64,000 bases of DNA from Certhia americana (taxonomy: Eukaryota; Chordata; Aves; Passeriformes; Certhiidae), in contig CM031858.1 of NCBI GenBank assembly GCA_018697195.1, positions 90,491,120-90,555,119 on the forward strand, written 5' to 3'. The notes beneath the pieces are model-generated. The model was not told the DNA's origin and did no database searches. It worked only from the letters and a program-made list of their open reading frames with translations. This document shows positions 3,001 through 38,209 of this stretch, piece after piece. Both the position numbers and the translations under genes were made by a program. The number at the start of each line of letters is the position of its first letter. Position 1 is the stretch's first letter.

Positions 3001-5454
3001 CATATTTGATTTTATCCCCCTTGTCTTTTTCTTTATTTGGACTTCACATGCCTGGCAGATACAAATGTATAGAAAATAATCCATATTGTTTTATATTGGA
3101 TTCATGTATATTACAAAGGAAAGTCCCCATAGCATTAGGATTTTGTGCGTATAAATTCCTCTTAGAAGTGTAGCCTTAGTGAGAGCAGCATATTAAGAAG
3201 CTAAGACAGAAGACGAATTTCAGCATTAGAATGGTTCTGATTCCTCTGAGAGAGTTTGGCTTCTAATGATCCTGATTAAAGAAAGAGGATGCTAATGAAG
3301 AAGGCACAGGTAAGTATTTCATGTTGCTTTTTGATAAGTCATAGTCAAGGCAAGACCTATTGGTACAAACTGTCAGTTACAACCAAACAACATAGAAAAT
3401 TAAAAAAAAACAGAGATTAAATTAGTCTCAAAATAGTAATTTAAAAATTCTTTCAATAGCTCCTCCATTTTTTAATTGGTGTAACATCAAGCAGCAGAAG
3501 GGAAAATGGCTGTTAATTTATAACACCACGTTTAATTTTTTTTTTAATCAAAAATTAGAAGTTGTTTTAATTATCTAAAGAAGCAGTTCTGTAAGTTTAC
3601 GGTGATTTAAACTTCCCTAGACCTTCTCAATTCTTTGTTCAGGCATTGTGACCATCATTTTTAGTACTGCTTTTTAAAAACCAGCCAGTGTCCTGAGCAA
3701 TAATTGAGTTCTGCTTAATTATGATCCATTTATAGAGAACTTCCTGTGTTTTCTTTCTCAAAAAAATAAGGACACAACTCAGTTAATTCCCTCTAATTTT
3801 AGAATAAGAATTTCAAATGTTTTTTTTGTTTTCTTTATATCTTTGGAGAATCATGAAGGGGAAGGTGACATTACAAAGAAAAGCATGGAACAAATTAATC
3901 CATTGTCTTGTATATAACATAAGTTTAACTGTGTGATGTTCCCTTCAGTGTTATCCTGTCTCTTGGAATAATCTGCCCAACCATGAGCAGTTGAAGAAGT
4001 TAGTGTCTGTAAGTAGCTGAGATGAGAAAAGGAAGGATTAAAGAATTCTGTCTGGTGGGGTCACTGAAGGTGGATGTGCCACCTCTGACACACTGCAAAC
4101 CAAGCCTGTTGAAGTCCTTCACAGGACCTAATGCTGATGAAAATGAATATCTTCCAAATCAAAATGGAGTGTCTGTATTCTGGGTCATTGTGGTTTTATT
4201 TTTATTCCAATATTATGTTTTGAAAGTACTATGTGACTATGGATTTTTATTATAATAATATAGCACATATGATAATGCTCTAGTGTTCAAAATAATCCAA
4301 AATAATTTGAAAATAATGAGATAATAATTGCTGTCTTTACACGCGGTACTTATGTAATTATTACGGGATAAACTGATCTCATTTAAATTACCTATTTGAT
4401 TATGTAATATATGCTTTGTGAGATAGTGTTACCCAGTCCATTTATGTGTCCGTTTTGATTGACATCACTTTCACACTAAATACTTTCCTTCTGTATTCAG
4501 CTAAAATAGACTGAATTCATCATGCACTGAATAGAAACTTAAGAATAAGTGTTTAGATAATTGGGCATCAGGGATTCTTGGAAGTCTTTATTATGTGAGA
4601 GCGCCCAAATAACATCTGTTCCTACATTCCTGTTATTCAGGGTTGCTTTGTAGTTATTGAGTCTTCAGGGACATCAGAAGCAAGAAACAAAGATATGCTG
4701 AATAAAATCCACTTTATATAAAGCCCTTTACACCCGTCTAGTTAGCAAATGTAGCCTGGTTTAGGATAAGACCAAATATCAGTAAAGAAAGGAGAGACTG
4801 GTTTTTGATATTTAAAAATAGCCATGTGTAAGGGATACAGAAGGAAGTTGTTTAGGAGAGTACCAATGCCTGGACACTTAGTGAAACCAAAATGGAGCCA
4901 GCTTCTTCAAAATTGTTTCAACATCAGTAATTTCCCCCCAAATAACAATAATTTCTAGTATATTCTGTAGAGAAGGCCATATTACAGGTTCAAAGGAAAT
5001 GTAATTAAAGCTAAAAAACATAGTAATGAATTGTTTGAGAACAAAGGAGGAAACAGGTATGGCATGAAGGGGGCCATGCTCCTCAGAGATGGGAAGGAGC
5101 TAGTCAACTGTAAAGTATCAGTTTACTGTAATTATACCTGTTGTCTGTGCCAAATCCAAATCATTTAAATCCAAATTTGTTTAATGGTGAATTATGGTAA
5201 CATAAGCAAGAGACTTGGTTTTCAGTTGACTGAAAATTAATTTCCATCATTTCTCAATATTATGCATGCAATCTTCCTTTCTATTTCTGTTTCAAAGCTC
5301 AACTTTCGAACAGATATTGTTAATGGTTTTAACTCTAACTTTTCACACATTGCTGATAAAGCACACCTTAATCTCATGAAATCTCAAAAGCCAGCAACAG
5401 GTATTTTTTAATTGTGCTGTCCTCAGGAAGTCCACTATTTTATCTGTCTCCATT

Positions 5455-28500: not shown

Positions 28501-29700
28501 GAAAAGGATTGGACAATTTATTTGACTATAAAGTATTTGGTCAGATGAATATTTTTATTAATAATAAAAATTTTTATTTTCAATGGTTCCGTGGAAGCTT
28601 CATGAAATCATTTTTCAACTTGTGGATTCTCTGAGAACTATTGATGACAGTTAATTCATCCCTTACATGTGTGAATAGACGCAAAAAAATTCAGAGAGTA
28701 TTTGAGAATTTTTTGCATAAACACCTGTTCAAATTCCTAGTTGTGCATTCTGAAGGGTGCCCGTGCAAACTTGAATATCACAATTCTAAAATAAAAAAGT
28801 AGTTTCTGTAAAAATCATTTAAATTTATAAAAGGAAGTCAAAGTACTTTGAAAGAAAACTTGCAGGGTTTTTTTCCTAAAAATATCAATATCTTGAAATA
28901 TGTTATATTAAAGCTACTATTAATACACATGCACTTCTGCAAATGGGTACTTTCAAAAAGTAGGTAAATCAACTCACAATAAATGTTTGACAGTGTCCAC
29001 ATTCAAGAAACTGTGTGTTTGCCTTTAATGATAGCATAGTAATGAAAATTAGTCCAGGTGTTCTCACAGTGAAGACCATGAAGGTTTGATTAACGCTTCT
29101 GATATGGGCACAAGTTGCACTTATTTTGCTTTGGTGTAATTGAGAGCAATATTCTTCTTAATGTAATTAATTGCTACTGAATTGCTTTCATTTCCTTGAA
29201 AAAATATAGGAAAAGAGATAAAAGTATAAGTCCCTTATCCAATACCCTTATAGGTTTGAAATATATTTGCATTATTAATTATTTATTTTTAAAAAATACT
29301 TAAAAATTCCTCTGATCATTTTGAATGATTCCAAAAATATTTACAGCTGCTTTTTGGGCTGTGGAAGTGTCGAAAGTTTAAAAAGTCCAGGCAGTAAAAT
29401 CTGCAGATGTAATTTACACCTACTAATTCTAAATAACCCAGAACAACACAGACAGCAGTCTGAGATCATGTCTGAATTTGGAGATTTTATCTGATAAAAA
29501 TAGGGAATGTTTTTTGCTTTTGATTTGATTTTGCTGTATCCCTTCTGTTTATTTTAGTTTACAATATTCTACTAATATTTAGTTTACATATTTCTAATAT
29601 GGATGATACAGAATCCATGAAATGTTAAATAACACCTGATGAAGTTCATTTCGTGTTCAAATCAAGATGAGAATCACATGGAATGGTTAAAGGCCTTGGA
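22507..29700. other. AT-rich non-coding stretch, no supported gene
   Basis: Open frames reach 128 codons (28074-28460, beginning at a GTG) but none has a recognisable domain. A perfect 7-bp inverted repeat with a 1-nt centre lies at 23986-24000 (AGCTGAG/CTCAGCT). No classified repeat was seen up to the R2-like relic. Confidence 0.6.
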
Positions 29701-29729
29701 GAATTTCAACTGATTGGCCAAACTGAAAA

Positions 29730-30100
29730 CAATGCCTTCAGAACCATAATCACAGATAAGGAAATGCCAAAAATGTCAAAAAGATGAGTAAGTGCTCTGC
29801 TCCAGGGCCAGATGGGATTACTTTGAGAGACCTTAGTAAAATCGAACCCAAAGTTTTCCAGACCATGGAAATTTTCAATCTATGGCTGGCCATCAGGAAC
29901 GATACTGGACATGATGAAGGGATCCCAGAATGTTTTACTACCAAAATCAGCCAAACCAGAATGACTAAGGGACATCAACAACTAATGACCTATCACCATC
30001 ACCTCATTCATTTAAGGACTATTTTCCAGACTAATAAGAACACTGAGAAGGAAGCCTAGTCCCTGGCCCCTAGGGCACTCTTCTGTTACATCATCTTAGT
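29730..30100 (+). mobile_element. R2-clade non-LTR retrotransposon RT relic
   Basis: This is a decayed fragment of a reverse transcriptase (N-terminal part of the RT domain). The frame from 29784 shows SAPGPDGIT (29796-29822), then a KIEPKVFQ segment, EIFNLWL (29868-29888) and GIPECFTT. The frame then shifts: from 29965 the next frame reads LRDINN, two stops where an aromatic and a basic residue would be expected, PITITSFI, a stop, then GLFSRLI. Returning to the first frame, A-stop-SLAPRALF follows at about 30056-30093. The order GPDGI, FNLWL, DINN(WR)PITI, LFSR, L.PR...F is that of R2-type elements. No Myb/zinc-finger part, endonuclease or 28S rDNA flank was recognised. At least two frameshifts and four stops make it a dead copy. 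Another RT clade close to R2 is possible. Confidence 0.82.
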
Positions 30101-33100
30101 TAATAATAACATTGCATGGGACTACAAATGGACACTGTGAATGTAAAGTCACCACAATCCAGCTAAATCCAGGAATGGGTAGTAGGTAGAGATGACAAAG
30201 GAATTGCATTATGATATGCAACATATCAACAATTCAGGATAAAATTCCACCATGTTTGACCAAGGTGGATTGACCACCTATGCATAAACTGGAAAAGGAA
30301 CATATAAATTTTATACCTTTGATAAACAGACACTCAATTTTTTGATTACTTTCCTGTATATTTGATAAAGATCACATCACAGCCTCCCAACTTAGAAATG
30401 TCATTCTTGTTTGTATGAAAGGCTGTGCATTTGTATGTGGATGAGAAGACAGAAATATGCAGTGGTGTCCAGACTCATTCTGTCCTGCAGAAGACCTGAA
30501 CAGGAATAGGTTAAGTGGCTGAGACAACTGGAGTCTGTTTTTTCTCTTGCCAGTCACTGACCTCATTCAAGATCAATGAAGGAGTTGATCACTGCCAGGA
30601 TCTTTTTTCCTTTGCCTGAAAAATGTGTTTCTAGGTACACTTGTCTTTGTACTGGCAAAATGAAGTGGGAAAAATAAAAAATGGATAAAATTTTCTGTTG
30701 AGACAAGATTTTTAATGTGTGACCATACAGAGAAAACAATTATCAAGTATCACAGGTTGTGATGACCAAATTCTTTGAAGGGAATATACTATTAAGGGCC
30801 CCTATAAACTTAGGGACAAGCTTTTTATGTTCTGTTTATCTTTTTAAATGCAGAGTAGTGACTTCCAGGAGAACACAATTTTGAGTAAGTACATTTCATT
30901 CCCTATCTGCATTTTTTGAGATCACATAATACTCCAAGAGATCGACTTGAAGCCTTGAAAATCAAAAGTCGGTGATTGTTCTTGAATGTTACTCTTTGCA
31001 AACTTAGACTCTGTTTCATGTATATGTCCATTCTGCATGTGCTCTTTCTTATATCAGTTCTGGTCTGATTATGGTGTTTAGTTGTCCCAGACACTGCTTC
31101 CTTGAATGAATGTAGATTTATCCTTATAATATTATTGAATAAAATTTTAAAATCTCTGGGAACAGGAAGGTAAAATCTTTGTTATCTTTTCAGGAGAGTG
31201 CCCTGATCCCTGTGGGGCTGAGTGCAGCATCACCTTGCATCATCTCTAGTGGAACTCATGTTTCTTGTATTTTCATCACTGCTTGTTCTGGCCTTCCAAG
31301 AGAAGATATCCCTTTGGTGAAGGAGGTGATCTCATTAAGAAAGTTGAGTGCAGGTTCACATCTAAATAGGACCTAAGATCTATCCAGGACTCTCTATGTC
31401 TCATTCAATCGACACCTTGCAAAGTGTGTCAATTGTCTATTTCCTGATTGAAAAAGTGCTTCAGATGAGGGTTATAGACCCCTCTAAATGCTTCTGTCCA
31501 GGCAATCCATAGGTTTTCATCATAAGTGTCCACTGATTTCATATATGATAGGGTTAGGCAGTCCTAAAAATCCATGATTGATTTTGTCTGGAATTTTAAG
31601 TGCATTTTTGGTTCCCAAGATGTAGTTTGCCCATAATGACTTGAACACCTGTATCAGTCAGCTGTTGCTGGTATGTTATATATCTACTATACAGAAGGAA
31701 TAGTAGTGGCAACACCATCCCACTCTCCTTCAGTGCCTATCAGCTTCTCTGTGAACTTTCAAATGTTAAGAATGTTAATGATTTTACTTTTTAAAGCAGA
31801 GACACAAATTGTTGATTTGGAACTTTTATTTACTGCAAACTACTGCCTTAATTACGTTCAGGCTGAGCTCCATGCAAGTTGCCTAAAAATCTTCAACATA
31901 TGTTATGCAAATCACAACAGAAACTACTGTTTTCCATATAACTTGCCTAAAACTCATTAATAAGATAGAATGTCTCATTCCTAACCTGGTCTTACTTTAA
32001 TCTTTTCTAAAACCTGTAGGAAATAACTTAATTATGACAACAGCTTACAGTACCAGCATAAAAACCATGGGGAGATAAAAAATGGCTTGTTTTCAAGGCT
32101 TTCAAATAAAAATAGTTAAGTTTTTTTTAACAAAAACCTCATATAGACAGAGGTCTATATTATCCATTGTCCTATTCTTTTATAAATTGTTAAGATAGTG
32201 TATAAAAATACTACAGAAGTGTAATACAGAAACAACAAGCTAAGCTTAATTGAAAGTGCTTGTTTCAATACAGAATATATCAACAGAAAAGCCTCTTGGT
32301 GTTCTCAATGCCTCAGAAGCTTGTAGGAAAATAAAACTGGCAGAAAAAAATTTGTAGGGAAGACCTTAAATTGTTGTTCAGTGTTCCTGAGTGTGTAACT
32401 TCCATTATTAAATCTACTCAAAAAAGGGCATTTAAATTTAAAATAGTTGTATTAATGGCCTTTTTTTTTTTCCAGTATCAGCCAAATTTAATGGTTAAAT
32501 TATTTTAGTAGGAATAGTGTACACATCTGAGGGAAAGTGGAGCTGAGTACAATATTATAGTTTGTCAAACTGAACAGAAAAATGTGAAATGAGAACAGGA
32601 TTTCATAAGAATATCTGGTTCAAAACATGGTTGTTACAGTTCAATACTTACTGTGTTTCTTAATGCATCAGAATTTCTACCAGAAGAATATTATGCATTT
32701 GTACAATGTGTTTGAGAGAAAAAATGACTAAAAAGGGTAAAAAATCCGGTTGCAGATTAAATGTTGTTGCTTTGTGTTATTCTTGCCAGTATCTCTCATT
32801 TCTGGTACAAAAATGCTTAACAATGCAAGAAATGACAAAAATAGGGTCTAAATGTTAACTTACATCCTTCAGAATAAGAAGTTAGAATTTTTTTAATGTC
32901 CAAAAATATCAATAACCTTTATTTGCATATACATTTGTGCTATTATAGAAATATTGAAATTTTATATTAATGGATACATAAAGTCTTGAAAGCATACATT
33001 TACATATCAATCAGAGTTTAATCAATCCATCATTAAATGTTACCATCATTTGCTAGAAGAAGCACTAAAATCCCTCTAAAATTTCCATAATTTAACTTTC

Positions 33101-33118: not shown

Positions 33119-33440
33119 TGCTCCTTCCTTCCTTCCTTCCTTCCTAACTTCCTAACTTCCTTCCTAACTTCCTAACTTCCTAACTTCCTAACTTCCTAAC
33201 TTCCTTCCTAACTTCCTTCCTTCCTAACTTATTTCCTAACTTCCTTCCTAACTTACTTCCTAACTTCCTTCCTATCCTCCTAACTTCTTTCCTTGTTTCC
33301 TTCCTTGTTTCCTTCCTTCCTTGTTTCCTTCCTTCCTTGTTTCCTTCTTTGTTTCCTTCCTTGTTTCCTTGTTTCCTTCCTTTCTTGATTCCTCCCTCCC
33401 TCCGTTCCTCCCTTCCTCCTTGTTTCTTTATTGTATATGT
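33119..33440. repeat. Compound pyrimidine microsatellite (TTCC with TAAC, then TTGT)
   Basis: About 320 bp of almost pure TTCC-based repeat. From 33141 to about 33290 TTCC units alternate with TAAC tetramers (TTCCTAAC and TTCCTTCCTAAC higher-order units). From about 33291 to 33385 TTCC units alternate with TTGT instead. The end is richer in C (TCCCTCCC). The opposite strand gives spurious Lys/Glu/Gly/Arg-rich open frames (94 and 64 codons) that are repeat translations, not proteins. The tract is polypurine/polypyrimidine with regular interruptions. Confidence 0.97.
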
Positions 33441-37279: not shown

Positions 37280-38209
37280 AGTCAAGGCAGAAAGATTGGT
37301 GATTAGTGGTATCCCTCACGGTTCTTTCTTGGGACTAATGCTTTTTAACATCTTTATCAATGACAAAGACATTGAGTGCATCCTCAACAAATTTGCAGGT
37401 GACACAACGATAAGCAGTGCTGTTGACACACCTGAAGGACAAGATGCCATACAGAGGCATCAGAAATACTTGAAAATTGAGCTCACAACAATCTCATGGA
37501 ATTCACTAAGTCCATGAGCAATTTGTGTTTGGACAATCTCAGACGTGAGTACAGACAGGGAGAAGCACTCAGTGAGAGAAGCCCTGTGAAGGATAACTTG
37601 GGGGTTCTTGTGTTTGAAAAGTTGGACATGAGCCAACAGTGCACACTTGCAGTTCAGAAGGCCAACCATAACCTGTGCTGCATCAAAACAAGCGTGGTCA
37701 GCAGGTCAGGGAAATTTCTCCCCATCTATTCTACCCTGGTGAGACCCCACCTGGAGTGCTGCATCCAGCTCGGGGGTCCTCAGCACATAAAAAATACAGA
37801 CCTGTTGGAGCGAGTCCAGAGGAAGGCCATGAAGGGGGAGTACCTCTCCTGTGAAGACATGCTTAGAGAGCTGGGGTTGTGCACCCTGGAGAGGGGAAGC
37901 CTCCATGGAGACCTAAGAGCAGCCTTCTAGGACTTGTAAGGGGTCCTCTAGAGAGAGGGACAGTGAATTTCTACACAGGCAGGTAGTGATTGGACAAGGG
38001 AGGATGGTTTTAATCTAAGTAGAGAGACACTGAAACAGGTTGCCCAGAGAAGTTGTGAATGTCCTGATCCTGAAAACTCTGAAGGCCAGGTTGGAAGGTT
38101 CTTTGAGTTGATCTAGTGGAAAGTGGCCATGCCCACGGGATGGGGGGTTGGAACGATAAGAGCTTTAATGTCCTTTCCAATATAAACCATACTATGTTTC
38201 TATGATTCA
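37280..38209 (+). mobile_element. CR1 LINE, 5'-truncated, with partial reverse transcriptase
   Basis: The best-preserved CR1 copy here. From about 37290 one frame gives SGIPHGSFLGLMLFNIFIND, an IECILNKFAGD segment and VDTPEGQDAIQR: RT motifs 4-5 and beyond. The catalytic FADD box reads FAGD (37390-37401), so a required aspartate is lost. After a frameshift and a region of disorder near 37470-37560, the frame at about 37570-37930 gives DNLGVLVFEKLDMSQQC, QKANHNLCCIK, PIYSTLVRPHLECCIQ, DLLERVQRKAM and ELGLCTLERGSLHGDL, the conserved CR1 C-terminal part. The 3' untranslated region follows and ends in CTATGTTTCTATGATTC at about 38209. The endonuclease and most of RT are missing. It is an inactive genomic relic. 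Confidence 0.95.

Follow-up and report, generated by a model that had tools for sequence, protein, structure and literature searches.

Inspection of the window (the whole 64-kb stretch of DNA analysed in this study) revealed, at positions 29595-30326, a decayed and internally deleted copy of the retroelement R2. Its reverse transcriptase (RT) part and its last ~240 nt match an intact R2 that resides in a 28S rRNA gene of the same genome, on contig C310. The initial annotation had confined the relic to 29730-30100, which proved too narrow. The following features were distinguished:

29553..29600, no strand: two-copy tandem duplication adjoining the R2 homology at its 5′ truncation point, found with Tandem Repeats Finder
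29595..30074, plus strand: decayed RT part of R2 (R2 nt 1938-2418; about residues 535-689 of the ORF)
29983..29988, plus strand: TAA TGA replacing the conserved Trp-Arg (DINN-WR-PITI), from sequence and translation
30053..30083, plus strand: approximate zone of the internal-deletion joint between the RT domain and the 3′ end region, from local alignments to the C27, C24 and C310 copies on both sides
30083..30326, plus strand: R2 3′ untranslated region (UTR) up to the R2 3′ terminus (GATAAA), from alignments
30327..30331, plus strand: first five flanking bases, CAGAC, a 3/5 match to 28S TAGCC (proposed primer/template pairing trace, based on the set of copies)

Anatomy and identity of the window copy

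The RT part is interrupted by frameshifts and stops. The four motifs on which the relic was first recognised (GPDGIT, EIFNLWL, DINN..PITI and LFSRLI) are all present, in two phases: GPDGIT and EIFNLWL share one, while DINN-stop-stop-PITI and GLFSRLI share another, and a frameshift separates them. The tandem stops occupy the predicted place of the Trp-Arg pair, the intact R2 of C310 reading DINNWRPITI.

The resemblance of this region to R2 is far beyond chance. At the DNA level, 29595-30074 shares 67% identity over 485 bp with the rDNA-resident R2 of C310 (blastn) and 77% over 444 bp with the C27 copy; in the DNA search of the same genome, the C27 second copy matched the window at E 2.4e-89. 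When the ORF of the C310 R2 was compared with the 64-kb window by tblastn, residues 535-689 were aligned with 41% identity (E 2.9e-26). In a PDB search, the 55-aa frame at 29760-29926 matched three chains of R2, namely 9nl3 (E 2.8e-12), R2Tg 9dou (E 2.9e-12) and 9nl2 (E 1.6e-6), and the sole other match at E up to 10 was an unrelated chain (E 1.5). Neither LINE-1 nor any other LINE was listed for this frame. Together with the tblastn result and a tree placement on the bird side of R2 (see below), these matches bear out the R2 family assignment proposed earlier. Pfam gave no match in two window frames, including one of 99 aa.

The window copy lacks (i) the R2 5′ end with the ribozyme region, (ii) the regions of the zinc fingers, the Myb domain and the restriction-like endonuclease, and (iii) ~2 kb of R2 at the internal deletion, whose joint is placed only to the zone 30053-30083. 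Splicing was considered by eye as the origin of this deletion, and was unsupported. Among 24 pairs inspected for covariation in the 3′ UTR, none had a kept two-sided change. The feature is an ordinary decayed R2 copy in an unusual location. R2 is defined via homology plus the 28S insertion site (PMC13188248); since a test for the 28S site found the window copy to lie outside it, this copy is classed as R2-derived and off-target rather than as a strict-sense R2 insertion.

Elsewhere in the window, positions 33122-33421 contain a pyrimidine-rich (TCCT)n-like array of about 300 bases, and 37481-37930 a 149-aa open frame whose motifs appear to resemble the end of a CR1 RT.

R2 elements residing in 28S rDNA

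The unplaced contig C310 (31.4 kb) carries a 28S gene interrupted by an R2 of about 4.7 kb. The LSU match spans C310:23492 up to the boundary of the stretch searched and is preceded by 5.8S. The element has the ribozyme motif CCTCCTCGTGG near its start and a long open frame without stops, and its 3′ end is directly followed by the 28S sequence TAGCCAAATGCCTCGTC. The encoded protein matches R2Tg (9dou) with 2134.6 bits over query residues 3-1163; Pfam detected Myb and RVT_1, and the fingers and the endonuclease were assigned by eye in the translation, following their known motifs. An uninterrupted run of about 48 A residues (L016:4149-4196, on the searched stretch L016) lies in the 3′ UTR of the intact element, ~160 bases from its terminus, and an A-rich stretch occupies the same place in the C28 relic.

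A second rDNA R2 of C310 (C310:12301-13500, minus strand) is internally deleted to about 1.07 kb and has 28S on both sides. It resembles the short internally deleted elements of flies.

R2 loci outside rDNA

DNA searches and one protein search of the genome (1.067 Gb, 652 contigs) identified at least 23 R2 loci outside rDNA, all locus counts being lower bounds. In the protein search, 60 of 523 first-look candidates were scored, with 62 matches; matches to the RT only, at 24-30% identity, were set aside as other LINEs, presumably CR1. The loci, given as contig and position, are:

C2: 90.52M (window), 79.60M, 58.05M, 38.86M, 67.17M
C27: 6.57-6.58M, 14.17M; C24: 46.05M, 15.25M, 12.78M
C3: 45.54M, 17.43M; C25: 53.20M, 27.13M; C28: 0.91M; C12: 10.64M
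C1: 108.26M, 40.06M; C4: 25.00M, 19.88M; C10: 11.17M; C5: 14.74M; C11: 13.49M

A query with the R2 5′ end recovered nothing from the same genome beyond the two rDNA copies and a small piece of 28S, and added no locus. At C27:6.571-6.584M a long decayed R2 outside rDNA reaches from residue ~52 of the ORF to the 3′ end over about 13 kb, a spread presumably due to later insertions. A 49-base 28S match (92%), corresponding to ~40-90 bases upstream of the R2 site, is also found outside rDNA, at C2:35255159-35255207.

Flanks of the non-rDNA copies

The stretches searched for 28S flanks comprised 64 kb for the window, 9-10 kb for 6 sources, about 3 kb for 12 and 0.6-0.7 kb for 5. A junction query, joining the terminal 60 nt of the R2 on C310 to 47 nt of 28S, matched 19 of the 23 non-rDNA loci at an E threshold of 0.01 and gave no match at C2:58.05M, C2:67.17M, C2:38.86M and C11. 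Seventeen of the matches end 2-11 nt past the R2 terminus, that of the window 6 nt past it, and those at C1:40.06M and C5 before it; both rDNA copies match through the whole 28S part. When the entire R2, extended into 28S, served as query, the matches of nine copies end 2-8 nt past the terminus. A separate R2 query itself ended at nt 4696, so its match ends at 4693-4694 prove little alone; the two queries that extend into 28S provide the actual test.

On the upstream side, the 600 nt of 28S closest to the R2 site matched the rDNA control only. The earlier part of 28S gave three weak matches (E 0.001-0.003) in the searched stretches L013 and L015, which we take as chance. Rfam detected no rRNA in the window at its gathering score, and no rRNA in L009 and L010 (C27:6.571-6.584M) and L016 at E up to 0.1; the latter search also missed the 47-nt 28S end of L016. 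Because Rfam is insensitive to such short pieces, we relied on blastn with the C310 28S flanks, whose upstream flank has no match in the window. In the window, both methods agree with the reported lack of an rDNA flank. Target-site duplications were sought at 9 loci, and none was significant.

The bases immediately following the element resemble the 28S sequence. Over the 15 junctions that could be placed, positions +1 to +5 match TAGCC at 52 of 75 bases (about 18 expected; P about 1.5e-17), which ranks this pentamer first of the 1024 five-mers, and at +6 to +18 there are 53 28S matches in 195 (P 0.33), i.e. background. These P values hold for independent bases with a GC content of 35%. The 15 junctions come from two sets. 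For the 10 copies of the first, an ungapped block matching the R2 sequence GTTCGATAAA defined the end; here 33 of 50 bases agree at +1 to +5 (11.8 expected; P 1e-10), TAGCC is again first of 1024, and +6 to +18 gives 34/130. One of the search queries contained 47 nt of 28S, which introduces a small selection bias for 4 of these 10 copies. The second set was drawn from 13 further copies, found with queries devoid of 28S, in which an element-only profile of the first set had to reach its last two positions. Five copies passed, with 19/25 matches (P 2.5e-8) and TAGCC tied with TAGCT. The six copies found by the window query give 21/30, TAGCC being tied with TAGAC.

Eight of the 23 loci have no 3′ end placed by these rules and were left out of the count. 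By eye, an end can be seen in four of them, followed by TAGCC, CAGCT, AAATA and TAGCT, but not in the remaining four. Because the pentamer of the window copy, CAGAC, agrees at only three of five positions, the signature rests on the set and not on this copy. The window copy and that at C3:17.43M have the identical five flanking bases CAGAC, after which they diverge.

The copy at C3:17.43M has kept both R2 ends, with the middle missing. It starts with a 22-nt stretch that aligns to the 28 nt of 28S preceding the R2 site, with 6 nt lost. The score of this leader (8.0) exceeds that of all 9000 window 22-mers (maximum 7.0) and was reached by 4 of 50000 self-shuffles; these are post hoc figures for the sole copy with a leadered 5′ end, which was recognised before being tested. 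Upstream of -28, the locus shows no 28S similarity beyond chance (56% of nulls scoring as well). The ribozyme of zebra finch R2 RNA is predicted to cut at -28 (PMC3774820). Because the decayed leader begins at that position, and the 28S similarity goes no further upstream, this copy looks like reverse-transcribed, ribozyme-trimmed RNA and not like moved DNA.

Lineages and age of the relics

Over about 148 residues, the window relic shares 0.51-0.60 identity with the bird R2s compared, 0.41-0.42 with three turtle R2s and 0.34-0.36 with four named fish R2s. In the protein tree (20 rows, 158 columns) it falls on the avian side of R2 and pairs with the C27 relic (85/74); inner supports of this tree are modest, 3 of 17 branches being starred. 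Two of its rows, from vulture and condor models annotated as ANKRD55, miss the relic region, and their long branch is meaningless. These models ("ankyrin repeat domain-containing protein 55-like"), like one from a cuckoo annotated as "mitochondrial enolase superfamily member 1", include R2 RT sequence. It is probable that all three are R2 copies absorbed into gene annotation.

The tree of the last 125 nt of the element (12 rows) groups the C28 relic with the rDNA R2 (93) and pairs two other relics (100), the rest being unresolved. Two placements in it are meaningless, namely those of the C2:79.60M row, in which R2 is confined to the final 75 nt, and of the deleted rDNA copy, which sits on a very long branch. 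As far as these groupings indicate, more than one R2 lineage appears to have leaked from rDNA, most branches of the tree being weak. The terminal branches of the window copy measure 0.25-0.29. At bird neutral rates, these lengths and the 77% identity to C27 over 444 bp suggest an age of very roughly 40-130 million years, an estimate not better than a factor of three.

Origin of the non-rDNA copies

Three origins had been put forward in the initial annotation: an old off-target insertion, a moved rDNA fragment and a related lineage devoid of site specificity. We favour the first and consider it highly likely that the window contains a fossil of off-target R2 retrotransposition, and that like events took place at 22 or more other sites and involved more than one lineage. 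Because they end at the R2 terminus, lack a 28S flank, carry TAGCC-like bases limited to +1 to +5 and, in one case, a 28S leader, the non-rDNA copies look like natural off-target products of target-primed reverse transcription of rDNA-derived R2 RNA, and not like moved rDNA. The process would involve the following steps: (i) R2 RNA transcribed inside 28S rDNA would retain a few 28S bases at its 3′ end, (ii) the R2 protein would bind the R2 3′ UTR and nick, or exploit a nick in, a non-rDNA site with a short TAGCC-like sequence, (iii) the 28S tail of the RNA would pair at the target and prime reverse transcription, and (iv) an early stop of synthesis would leave a 5′-truncated copy. The internal deletion may have arisen either during reverse transcription or later.

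The alternative that survives best, though we judge it unlikely, is a dedicated bird R2 lineage that has lost its target specificity. A planarian and a liver fluke have non-specific R2 families of this kind (PMC5035012), and both the number of scattered loci (at least 23) and the pairing of the window and C27 relics in the protein tree would fit such a family. A single lineage is nevertheless not favoured: in a tree whose branches are mostly weak, one relic groups with the present rDNA R2 and two others with each other, which indicates that more than one lineage contributed, and the TAGCC trace and the leader starting at -28 point to RNA that originated from 28S genes.

Still less probable is that a piece of rDNA containing R2 moved to chromosome C2 and then decayed. 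Fragments of 28S do occur outside rDNA, as exemplified by the 49-nt match at C2:35.26M, and many avian R2s adjoin fragmented 28S (Kojima 2016, PMC5035012, bird section). The junctions contradict this origin: none of the 19 matching non-rDNA loci runs more than 11 nt into 28S, whereas both rDNA copies do, and identity to 28S falls to background after +5 over the 15 placed junctions, although 28S sequence should decay at most as fast as R2. The window, moreover, has no LSU match.

It is very unlikely that the relic belongs to another LINE (CR1, L2 or RTE) that resembles R2 by chance, since the R2 identity extends beyond the RT motifs to the 3′ UTR and the terminus and the PDB search lists no LINE-1 chain, even though RT matches of 24-30% identity, probably CR1, are abundant in this genome.

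Relation to known R2 systems

The off-target insertion proposed here can be compared with several described systems. In its RT, 3′ UTR and terminus, the window copy is related to avian R2 of lineage A (R2Tg of zebra finch, Ficedula R2 and others), of which the genome has an intact 28S copy; unlike these elements, it is 5′-truncated, internally deleted, decayed and located outside 28S. R2-2_MUn and other avian R2s are likewise decayed, and one is internally deleted, but R2-2_MUn keeps a weakly 28S-like 5′ flank, which the window copy does not (PMC5035012). Avian R2s with non-rRNA flanks were already in print in 2016: many copies are described as having either fragmented 28S or non-rRNA flanks in the bird section of PMC5035012, where neither a signature at the 3′ junctions nor a mechanism of off-target insertion is given. 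Among the titles and abstract openings surveyed, mostly from outside the subscription journals, no study of the junctions of natural off-target copies in birds was recognised.

In human cells, off-target insertions of R2Tg have 4-5 nt of downstream homology, and also match 19-25 bp upstream, with a motif about 9 bp upstream (PMC12222951). For avian R2 proteins, the template must carry an rRNA tail, of which 4 nt suffice; their off-targets have little else in common, and internally gapped products occur (PMC11371274). The fossils share with the laboratory R2Tg off-targets the 4-5 nt of homology to the downstream 28S tail, a comparison that concerns the downstream side only (PMC12222951, PMC11371274). 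The R2Tg insertions are laboratory events, whereas the copies described here are natural and old.

R2NS-1_SMed and R2NS-1_CSi are also inserted at non-rDNA sites, as here. Some copies of the R2NS families are over 98% identical to their consensus (PMC5035012), whereas the bird relics are old and appear to derive from more than one lineage, and a 28S-resident R2 persists beside them.

R2 is a textbook example of an element with strict target specificity, and the proteins of avian R2s are under development for gene insertion into human 28S rDNA. Over tens of millions of years, the R2s of birds may repeatedly have leaked from rDNA, the pairing of 4-5 nt between the 28S tail and the target being the sole visible requirement; the relics would then form a natural, datable record of such events, possibly with phases of relaxed upstream DNA recognition. 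For this wider proposal we see about as much reason for belief as for doubt. A set of fossils bearing a laboratory-like trace of 3′ pairing makes the off-target rule testable over evolutionary time, as regards the frequency and sites of insertion, the truncations and the internal gaps, and the non-rDNA copies provide datable markers of ancestral R2 activity.
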